From Sinohyriopsis cumingii (lineage: Eukaryota; Mollusca; Bivalvia; Unionida; Unionidae): DNA of 64,000 nt. The DNA lies in NCBI GenBank assembly GCA_028554795.2, contig CM068841.1:24113308-24177307 (forward strand), given 5' to 3'. Under the pieces are notes generated by a model. It worked only from the letters and a program-made list of their open reading frames with translations. It did no database searches and was not told the origin of the DNA. The first letter of the stretch is position 1, and every line of letters begins with the position of its first letter. Shown piece by piece: positions 26,267 to 38,200 of this stretch. Made by a program: the position numbers and the translations under genes.

Positions 26267-29200
26267 GTTAGTATAGATGGGTTTGCTACCAAACGGATCT
26301 AATGAGAGAGAGAGAGAGAGAGAGAGAGAGAGAGAGAGACTTAGTATGACAATTTAAATAATTAATTGCATTCAAATTTCATTATTTTGACATATCATGG
26401 TGTACGGTGGGAACTTAATATTGCTGAGAAATGCGATAAAATGTTCATATAATATATTCATTTAGTATATAGCCTGTACAGTCACAATAAGGGGTACCAG
26501 TTCGTAGCGAATCAAAGAACTTGTGGGTGAGTGTAGCTTTAACAGTCCATATTTCTCCTATTTCAATGGATCTTAACATAACAGTCCTTGTCAACTGACG
26601 GGTTACTAAATTCTCAAACACTAATAATTTTATGTACAAATATCTAGATGATTCAATATGTTAGGAAATGGAGGGGGTGATTTTACGACACTAATCTGTG
26701 CAGTCATAAAGTCTTGTGCATTAGACCTTATGACCTCTTCCGCTAGAAGTTGGATAATTGCTCGGTCTGACAAATATCTTCCCAACACTTGCTTCCCGCA
26801 TTCAACAAGCATCGACTAAAATATAACAAAGCATACAAAGGAGATGTACAAACAATCTGACAACAGCCTAGATTTATTACAGCACTAACAAACAAATGAT
26901 TGTATTTTGCGGGAAATCGAATTCGCACAATATTCATGACTAGAACCCAGAAGTTCATTATTAATTTGAGATCTCCAGACATGCATCGTATCATTAGACC
27001 ATATAAACAAGTTTTCTCCTTGATGTTTTTTGATATACTGCTAATGAAACTTTATCATCCACAATGAGTCTCAAATGTACTTTGAAAATCCTCTTAAATA
27101 GGCACGTGAAAGAGGTAATAGCATCTAAAAACATGTCTCCGCTCTCTAAAAGTTACGTTCTACATTGATGATGTGTACGAAAACTTAAAAGTGCATACTT
27201 AAGGAAGGTTATTGTATAATATCGGTGACCAGTTTTGTCAAGCAGATTAAATCGTAATGGCAACTTGTTAGATATGATAATAACAACAACAATAAAATCA
27301 ACAACAACATTAATAATAATAATAATAATAATAGTAATAGCGGTGATAATGATTGTGGTAGTAATAGTAGTAGTAGCAATTACAGCAGAAGGAAAAAGGA
27401 GTGAGGAAACATTAATATACATTTACTTTTATTGCTAACTTTTATATTCATTTTGCTGCCGTTTGGCTTGCAGACCCTGTCCAGCTGTTCCAGTTATTTG
27501 ACTCTGGAAAATACAATGAAAACAATGCGGCCCTGGTTTCAAAAACGATGGATATACTGAAGACAATGTATTCTCTCTCTCTCTCTCTCTCTCTCTCGCA
27601 CACTCCAAAATGACTATATTACTACATTGATGCTATTAGACCATACCCCTGCTGGATTTTTACGTACACATGTGTGGGGGAAAAGGCTCGGGATGGGAAA
27701 TGCATATTTAATTACTGTGAATAATGAATACTCTATAAAAACATGCGGAACTACTACGGCATGTCCGTTCGTTCATGTGCTCATGTCTACAAGTATGCTT
27801 TCGTGCAAACAAAATGTAGTGCAGATCATTCTTGAAGAAAGAAAACAAAATGATAAAAATAAACTATTGCGGACCAGGTGGAAGATCATATTGTCGACCA
27901 CGTATGTATGTATGCATGTATGTATGTATGGATAGATGGATGGATGAATGGATGTGTGTGTGTGTGTGTGTGTGTGTGTGTGTATGGATGGATGTACGAC
28001 TCTATGGTCTGAGACTAAGTATCAGAAAAGAGCGAAATAGCAACAAATTTTGTTAGATTGGAAACAATTTATTTTCCAATATGACAAAGTGAACATTTAA
28101 AGGGATCTTACTGATTTGTGATCTAAATTCTAAATTATTCAAAACGTTCTGTCACAAGCCCCAATGAGTAAAGTTTTAACTGAATTTGAATGATATTTCA
28201 AACAAGTTCCAATAATAAATGGGTTGATGAGCCAGTGACCTGAATTGTGATGATGTGGTGCCATTCTTTGAAATGTAACACAATATTTAAATCAGAAATG
28301 TTCTAGTCTGAATTCACTATATTTCCAAATTAATGTTTCTGTCCAATAATATTACTGAGCGCCTTATTATTCCATTGAATAACAATTTGAGTAAATCAAT
28401 CCACTCACGTCAAAATCTGAAACAATACGAATGATTCTGCTGCAGACGGTAGGGCAAGAATGAATACTTTTTCAAGTGAAAAACATTACTAAAAAAATAA
28501 GACATAATAATAGTAAAAGGCCGATGGTCAAAAGTTTATTTCTAGAATATTCTAAATTGTCAACAAGATAAGGTCTATTTCTATAATTATAATAAAGAGC
28601 ATATCAACCATCAGGTATCCAGTTTTATTCCATAGGGGAATAACAGTCTTCTAGACTCAGATCAAGATAAATATATTTACCTCCATTGATAATTATCATA
28701 ATATTTAATCAATACTCACAGAGAAATATTAGCTATGTATTATGTTGCTTACAAAATCAAAGTTCCTGTTCAGATATACCATGAACGTGATTATGGACTA
28801 AGGTCAATCACAATATACAATTATACGAAACATATATTTATTAAGAAAAGCTAATACATATTAACAATTACATATTGACAAGTATGTATGTATGTATGTA
28901 TGTATGTATGTATGTATGTATGTAGATATGTAGGTAGGTAGGAGTAACTGTATGTCTACATATACACACATATGTATGTAGGCAAGTAGGTTGACGCAGT
29001 GGCAGTTTGTATTTCGCAAAGTGTATGTCTGAATATGTGTACATATAAGTATGTAGTTAGGTGGGTACATGGATGGTTTGCATCTATTTATAAATACATA
29101 TACAGTGTAAATCTATATAGTTTGTATGTGTGTATATGTATATATGCATTAATTTACATGTAAATAAATACGTATGTGAATTCGTACGCTCGCATGCTAA

Positions 29201-35200: not shown

Positions 35201-38200
35201 CTCAAGTGGCTTTTCACTTGTCAGTCTGTCAGTTTGTGTTTTAATCTACACCCCTCTGTTCGATCGTTCTTCTTTAATTTTAATATACAACATGAGATAC
35301 CGCTTTCGTTGAAGGTGAATAATAATAATAATAATAATAATACAAATTATATAATTAAATTATTATTATAACAACTATTATTATTATTATTATTATTATT
35401 ATTATTACAATCTTCATGTCTGTTACTTCTTAAAAATACGATGTTCTTTTGTTACGTACTATAACATCTTTTTGTGACGCATGATGTATGTATCATGGAC
35501 CAGTGGCCTATATTGCAAATAAACACTATTATTATTATTATTAGTATTATTATTATTATTATTATTATTATTATTATCAATACAGGGAATATGCTTTAAG
35601 GAGTTAGTTGATTAAATCTTGAACATTAGTGTCCCATCTGATTTTCGTCATCAATTTCAATACATGATAGAAAGCATTTCGCCCATCAGTTATAACAATA
35701 TGAATGTAGTTAAAGACTCAAATGCATGATCAAAAATGTCCAGTAAATGTATTCTAATTGTTCAGTATTGTCGCTACCGCCTTGACTTATGTTGCCTTTT
35801 GGAAATCACTATCTGAACGCGATAAAACTAACACTCAGTGCAGACAGATTTGATTCCAACTCGAATGATATCCTGTGAAATATCTAATTTCACTTAATGA
35901 CATTGAATCCTCGGTCGGTTCGTCTTGCAAACTATCAAAGATGTCGAGTGCAATAAGTCTGTCAATCGCTATGTCACAGGATAAATAACAGCGTAATACA
36001 ATGGTTTGGACATCTGACCAGCGGTAATATTACCAAAGACGTTATATAAATTCTTGAATTGATTCCCATTCATCGATGTTACCTGCTACAGATTTGATTG
36101 TCTCAGTTGCATTACCTATGCAACTGGATTTGTTTGTAGTGTTCAAATTCCGCAAATGTTTCGCATATGTGTCGAAGCAAAATATATATGATAATTTCCT
36201 AGAAAATTACCTTTCTTTCTAGTTTAATCCTGTCCATCTATGAAAATCTTTTATTTTTAGATAACCAAAATATGATAGATGATGGTGAGGTTTTTGAGAT
36301 ACAAAACTTTGCGCGTGATTGTTATGAAATGCAAGCATCAGCCGACATATGAGTTGATGATACTGAATCTTTTTAACATTTTAAGAGTATATATGTTGAT
36401 AGTGGTTTTGACGATCAAGGTAAACGACAATTTTATACTGGGCATGAAGATATTGGAAGAATGGAAACGAAATTAGAGGATCTTCTCATAACTTCTAATG
36501 AGAGATAGCATTGGTCCTTTTAAATAACTATAGACAACACATATGTCTTGAGGTATTAAGGGCGAAACCTACCTAAATTCTGGAGGAACATCCGGTGATG
36601 CACATGAAGTAAAGATCAAAAACATATGCAGAAAAAAGTGATAGTAAACACTCTTATGGCCCAGTTCAATAATAAATTAAAACTGAATCTTATTTTTGTG
36701 ATGTTCTTGGAATATGTTTAGTTCCCTTATTGCCTATGGTAAAAAATCAACTCAGTTTTTGGTTCAAATTAGGAAAATTACACTTTTTATGCTTAAACTG
36801 TCTCCTTCTACTATGGCTGCTTAATGTCTATGGAAGCTGTGAAACATTCACCTTTTTCATATTCCAGATCTCTTAGTAATGATGCTCTCCATGAAACAGT
36901 ATCTTTTAAAATTTTGCTCCTCAGATGTTCGTCTAAAATTTGTGTTCTTTTTGTAACCTTTCTTGCAAACGTGTATTTTGACAAATTATCCATTGTTGAC
37001 TGCATCCATTGTTTTTCCTTGCATATGCTTCCGTGCATATACTCATAAAATGTTGGAGTTGTGGACTATTTAGCGAGCCATTTTTCAATTCAATGTCTTT
37101 TGTTTTCTTTTTTTTTTCTCCTTAATTATTACAATAGTTTGTTTTCATTTTTACTCCCTTCTCTGTTGTTACAATTAACAGACATTCGTTACCGTAGAAA
37201 CGATGACTTCAATAGCTGCATCTGCTAATTCAACTGCATCTGATATTGCCATTTATATAGAACCAACACATACAGATCATACTTTAGTCGAATAAACTGA
37301 CATTAGACGATATCAAGAAGCCAAAAGAAGACCACATGGGACACATATTTCCAACAACGCACCGCCCTTTATAAATCAATCAAAACGTATGAAAGAGTTC
37401 ATGTTTAATTCGAAGTTTGTTATTTCTATAATTTTCTTCGCTTCATTTGCTTCATATACCGAGAAACCATGTGTTGTTTTAATTCAATCTGTTTTGCATA
37501 AATTCCATCCCTTTGAAATTGAATCATTTGGCTAAACCTCATAAAGATGATATGATCTTTAAGTTGTTATGTGAATGTTGCCTATAAGGAAATGTATCCT
37601 TACTTCACATTCAACCGTTTAAAACATGATGGTGTTTCGTTAACGGTATGGTCATTGAAAGCAATGTGCAATGTGCAATCTGCATCTTCCATGAAACAAT
37701 GAAGTGGACAATTCATGTTCCTTTATTTATTATCCTGGATATCGTCGATACAGCTAACTTTGATCATACGTTTATCCAATCAAATTTTTAAACATAATCT
37801 CTTGACACCGACGATATTGCTTTCGTGTTAATTTCATTAAATCTCTCTCTTCAACTCTCAGTGTTGATGTTTTCAATGCAAGTTAGTTTTCTGACATTAT
37901 TTAAGATTAATTAAAGTAAAGTATTGTTTCTACTTTAAACGTTTCGCCATGCTACTCGTCCTTAGGGCCTAGCTACACTATTCATTTTGTAATTTGTACA
38001 GTAATCACTTTGAATCAGACTGGTATCGTAATTTGTCGGTTGCGTCCGTTTTGAATATTGTTTGGTTAGAATTTCTCAGTTATCTACTTATTTGCTGTGT
38101 GTTGACAGATGTATTGTTGTATTAAATTTCACTAAGGTCAGATCTCTCAATATGTCTTCTACTGTTTATTAATTTCAGGACTTGACGGTGCCACACTGAG

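Follow-up and report, generated by a model that had tools for sequence, protein, structure and literature searches.

In the Dup18-30 mouse, the duplicated exons of Dmd were found joined by reverse transcription PCR (RT-PCR) and dystrophin is absent (PMC8103086), and a 12.3-kb duplication in LRBA with 3 bp of microhomology is predicted to shift the reading frame (PMC8602677). Near-identical exon copies inside one gene are also described among assembly errors, and false duplications are reported there to be most often separated by gaps (PMC9516828). The criteria by which PMC3228551 picks out mutually exclusive exons are homology and similarity in length, splice sites and frame, and the clusters described there consist of single neighbouring exons. 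The members of such clusters encode different versions of a region, and the human events of this type are mostly ancient in the account of PMC9741552. Exclusivity has been ascribed to an intron that is too short, to mixed U2/U12 sites, to decay, and to docking/selector pairing (PMC6071210). Here, we describe a 4.9-kb direct tandem repeat inside a predicted animal haem peroxidase gene of the bivalve Sinohyriopsis cumingii, in a window of 64,000 bases (GenBank assembly GCA_028554795.2, contig CM068841.1, positions 24,113,308 to 24,177,307 of the forward strand) with 34.6% G+C and 0 N. We put at even chances the reading that this repeat is a very recent, real duplication that would break the reading frame of the gene.

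Comparison of the window with itself by blastn returned a direct tandem repeat of 27879-32786 against 32785-37673 with 99.49% identity, 0 mismatches and 25 gap positions. In a self-comparison limited to repeats of at least 150 bp and E values of at most 1e-20, with low-complexity sequence filtered, the only other repeat was a 45-bp tandem array at 4927-5255. Base-level alignment of copy 1 (27879..32786, plus strand) and copy 2 (32785..37673, plus strand) gave 4,886 matches, 0 mismatches and six indels, which bears out the near-identical tandem duplication of exons C and D that an earlier note on this DNA had described. A substitution-free repeat of 4.9 kb is far beyond chance, and its 4,886 columns bound the divergence of the copies to less than about 0.061% at 95%. 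The breakpoints of the unit lie in the introns between exons B and C and between exons D and E, and the copies meet without a gap, sharing 2 bp of microhomology (TG). By eye, the right end of the unit (37660-37690) falls within a short run of 7-bp tandem units (GCAATGT-like). The breakpoints also show an inverted 8-mer, with TGGAAGAT close to where the unit starts and its complement just past the unit end. It was dismissed as weak; when 1,000 pairs of 50-mers were drawn at random about 9.8 kb apart, 43 had an inverted match of at least equal length.

Five of the six indels are changes of whole motif units in short tandem repeats (STRs), namely TG at 27953, GTAT at 28882, two units of ATTT at 30269 and TAT at 30489 of copy 1, and TAT at 35545 of copy 2. 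The sixth, AAGGC at 28517-28521 of copy 1, spans 5 bp of non-repetitive sequence. At five of the six sites the longer copy is copy 1. The whole-unit changes fall at five of the seven copy 1 rows of Tandem Repeats Finder (five of six if two overlapping rows are merged), and the alignment contains no 1-base indel despite 27 homopolymer runs of at least 5 bases per copy. Typical long-read errors are 1-base homopolymer indels. The indels look biological in character, and the whole-unit changes, the 5-bp indel and the absence of Ns together point to two distinct molecules.

The surrounding gene, on the plus strand, was reconstructed by hand placement of exons A to N at GT-AG sites. Exon A (25942..26086) is open from a start codon with AG just before the ATG, ends at a GT donor in phase 1 and encodes a hydrophobic N terminus that by eye resembles a signal peptide. 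It is followed by exon B (27474..27567, phase 1 to 2), exons C1 (29258..29472, 215 nt, phase 2 to 1) and D1 (30063..30251, 189 nt, phase 1 to 1) in the first copy, and the identical exons C2 (34153..34367) and D2 (34958..35146) in the second. Exon E (38179-38233) enters in phase 1, and exons E to N (38179..47533) encode the remainder of the peroxidase domain: F (38637-38749), G (39603-39701), H (40086-40190), I (41250-41562), J (42277-42471), K (43270-43488), L (45508-45671), M (46042-46150) and the last exon, N (47371-47533). With one C-D cassette the exons give a protein of 726 amino acids (aa) with 0 internal stops, and TAA at 47534 follows directly after exon N. This protein matches the Pfam family An_peroxidase (PF03098) at E 1e-147 over profile positions 1-530 of 530. 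It also matches 34 distinct sequences of solved structure at E up to 1e-5, with myeloperoxidase and lactoperoxidase at the top (E about 1e-70), and peroxinectin A at E 9.3e-45. From these matches, the gene is predicted to encode an animal haem peroxidase with a full-length PF03098 domain.

As in myeloperoxidase, lactoperoxidase and peroxinectin, this domain carries distal WGQ-LDHD and proximal R-GH blocks. WGQFLDHDI of exon D aligns with WGQLLDHDL of myeloperoxidase, in agreement with the earlier claim that this exon carries the distal-histidine block, and RIGHSW of exon J aligns with myeloperoxidase RYGHTL. We take these to be the distal- and proximal-histidine blocks, respectively, from what is known of the family. 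At the start of exon I (41250-41275) the protein reads AGDSRVNVVPSL, against AGDTRSSEMPEL in myeloperoxidase and AGDSRASEQILL in lactoperoxidase. The myeloperoxidase segment RSSEM is RVNVV in the present protein, with Val in place of the acidic residue, which is presumably the Glu that forms the haem ester in myeloperoxidase.

The placed exons confirm the previously proposed phases, in which B leaves in 2, C runs from 2 to 1, D from 1 to 1, and E enters in 1. The length of the C-D cassette, 404 nt, is not divisible by three, and including both cassettes therefore breaks the frame. Among the 16 inclusion patterns of C1, D1, C2 and D2, six are open to the end and ten stop. The three patterns that had been listed as in frame (B-C1-D1-E, B-C2-D2-E and B-C1-D2-E) all encode the same 726-aa protein with one WGQFLDHD block, and the two cassettes encode the same peptide, as had been stated. 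The fourth, B-C1-D1-D2-E, is open as well; its product of 789 aa contains WGQFLDHD twice, as expected from the earlier note. Beyond those listed, B-C1-E and B-C2-E are open and give 663 aa without WGQFLDHD. Inclusion of all four exons does truncate the protein: translation stops after 220 aa, with six residues from C2 (AIRSLN) and then TGA, and skipping all four stops it after 81 aa. In the all-four transcript, the stop lies 195 nt upstream of the C2-D2 junction and is followed by 11 junctions. A stop well upstream of exon junctions usually leads to mRNA decay, and decay of this transcript is expected because its stop precedes the next junction by 195 nt.

A real duplication would have arisen through breaks in introns B-C and D-E joined at 2 bp of microhomology, as in end-joining or template-switching. 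If the spliceosome uses all sites, the mRNA would be B-C1-D1-C2-D2-E, which would be degraded or would yield a 220-aa fragment lacking the proximal histidine, and the resulting allele would be null or strongly reduced. Only transcripts that contain a single C and a single D exon (C1-D1, C2-D2 or C1-D2) would give the normal enzyme. By analogy with described cases, full inclusion and a null allele are the default expectation for a fresh intragenic duplication. The earlier statement that the gene must splice the cassettes exclusively or lose function holds as logic for the normal enzyme, but loss of function is the result to be expected of a fresh duplication within a gene. At human STR mutation rates, taken from PMC12240836, the differences at five of seven arrays correspond to about 10,500 to 114,000 generations. 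The absence of substitutions fits the young end of this range. Substitution rates of 1e-9 to 1.2e-8 would lead one to expect 0.1 to 1.2 substitutions at that end.

The duplication is ordinary in kind. It resembles those of LRBA and the Dup18-30 mouse in that exons are copied directly in tandem and the breakpoints fall in introns, and LRBA also in its predicted frame break. Junction PCR proved both of those, together with copy number for LRBA (PMC8602677) and with whole-genome sequencing and RT-PCR for Dmd (PMC8103086), whereas the duplication in the peroxidase gene is a candidate seen in assembled sequence. With the false exon gains of PMC9516828 it shares near-identical exon copies inside one gene, and it differs from those described there in having neither gap nor substitutions. 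Like the exclusive exons of the Dscam, Mhc and MRP type, its exons agree in length, phase and splice sites, and double inclusion is out of frame. Unlike them, it consists of two-exon cassettes with identical peptides and with introns that differ only by the six indels, and no regulatory structure was found in the intron comparisons made. A real duplication would offer a natural, substitution-free case for measuring how often a fresh exon pair is spliced in full, skipped or lost to decay; a false one would be an example of an assembly error that would burden the annotation of a gene with a frameshift or with two exons that do not exist.

Both a real young duplication and an assembly duplicate are known kinds of event, and the either/or between them that the earlier note had posed is retained. 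An assembly duplicate, in which each chromosome has one unit and two alleles (or the same allele twice) were placed end to end, is in our estimate somewhat short of an even chance. It would leave a perfectly normal 726-aa gene with no need for a null allele, and false exon gains within genes are a known class according to PMC9516828. The six indels could be allelic in a stretch of low diversity, and the STR arithmetic holds equally for two recently diverged alleles, so that it is not decisive for a real duplication. Several further points weigh against the latter. At its old end, the STR estimate predicts 1.1 to 13 substitutions and none is observed; exactly abutting copies are also expected from two unmerged overlapping contig ends; and by our own arithmetic, chance alone would give microhomology of at least 2 bp in roughly one of six blunt joins. 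A 5-bp indel outside repeats is a little unusual in the absence of any substitution, such indels being about one tenth as frequent as single-nucleotide variants in the human data of PMC12240836 (7.4 to 74.5). The gene is intact elsewhere, unlike an old null allele, as would be expected equally of a young duplication and of an assembly error. The junction contains 0 N and therefore lacks the gap that is usual, if not obligatory, between false copies, but false duplicates are sometimes joined gap-free through wrong gap filling (PMC9516828). False duplications on the same scaffold made up 7-24% in the assemblies described in that source, which counts against an assembly duplicate. An assembly duplicate made from two different haplotypes is unlikely: it would require local heterozygosity below about 0.06%, the probability of zero substitutions being 0.0076 at 0.1% and 2e-11 at 0.5%. 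A pair of ordinary haplotypes from an outbred invertebrate is therefore an improbable source of the copies, save for a stretch nearly identical by descent. The same allele placed twice, with read errors as the source of the differences, is likewise unlikely because the copies differ by entire units of repeats and by an indel of 5 bp, unlike 1-base homopolymer errors.

As to the splicing of a real duplication, the earlier note had read its exons as two alternative cassettes. An evolved switch, with the cassettes regulated as mutually exclusive exons, has in our view next to no chance of being correct. The cassettes do agree in length, splice sites and frame and are homologous and internal, as the sequence criteria of PMC3228551 describe, but trivially, being identical; the clusters in that source are of single neighbouring exons, here the cassettes hold two exons each. 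Where members encode different versions of a region and human cases are mostly ancient (PMC9741552), C1 equals C2 and D1 equals D2 with 0 substitutions, the peptides are the same and divergence is near zero. With identical exons, the cell would have nothing by which to choose between cassettes. The D1-C2 intron of 3,901 nt is long for steric exclusion, and a simple pattern test gave 0 matches to U12-type donors among the exon ends. In a first run of intron pairing in 100-base windows, 0/20, 8/20 and 4/20 shuffles were as strong in three of four planned comparisons, of which the 0/20 case paired the left unduplicated intron with the start of the duplicated unit. This hint of docking/selector pairing did not hold when that one comparison was repeated in 80-base windows with more controls, in which 6/60 shuffles and 8/60 other window places were as strong. 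These comparisons gave no evidence that an exon switch has evolved, and on these sequence grounds we provisionally reject alternative cassettes as a present, evolved function. The decay-based exclusivity that remains is a bare consequence of exon lengths and is no evidence of regulation. We consider it improbable that a young duplication is tolerated through enough transcripts with one C and one D, with decay clearing the rest and exclusivity unregulated. Such tolerance would be helped by the 404-nt cassette, which puts double inclusion out of frame and leaves three patterns that give normal protein, by a B donor (AAT|GTATTC) that looks weak by eye and could favour variable splicing, and by the precedent of decay-based exclusivity in PMC6071210. 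It would require two exons (C2-D2, C1-D1 or D1-C2) to be skipped together in a coordinated way. Slightly less probable still is that a just-born cassette duplication, safe only in its exclusive outputs, is kept in the population by skipping and decay, as the first step of a mutually exclusive pair before coding divergence.

Within the duplicated unit, intron C1-D1 contains a stretch resembling a short interspersed nuclear element (SINE) at about 29696..29900 on the plus strand, with a tRNA-Pro (CGG) head at 29700-29772, and copy 2 contains its counterpart at 34591..34795 (plus strand; head at 34595-34667). The tRNA-Pro calls were made by ARAGORN in its bacterial setting. The two stretches are identical at 205/205 bases and have a CA-rich tail reminiscent of molluscan SINEs. 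A relative at 43839-43884 and 44038-44156 matches at 84% over 120 positions and 78% over 46, and because it is so diverged, the identity of the units stems from the duplication and not from the element family. Rfam returned no family at gathering score in the 64,000-base window.

Remnants of a broken peroxidase paralogue flank the main gene on both sides, about 46 kb apart. On the minus strand, 57924-54165 contains pieces of exons A, C and D, each with an in-frame stop and without WGQFLDHD, and 8047-6894 contains pieces of L, M and N with a stop in N; exons E to K had no match better than E 0.8 in the window outside the main gene. Exons C and D each occur at one place in the remnants, which weakly fits a single-copy C-D ancestral state, as far as broken remains can indicate. 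Open frames at 15895-17572 (plus strand) and 20104-19682 (minus strand) are related and inverted, with 26/38 residues identical in the best stretch. The two frames at 15895-17572 had no Pfam match and that at 20104-19682 only one below the curated cut-off; they are perhaps a mobile element and its degenerate partner. The 45-bp array at 4927-5255 has about 7 copies, and on each strand at least one of its frames is open.

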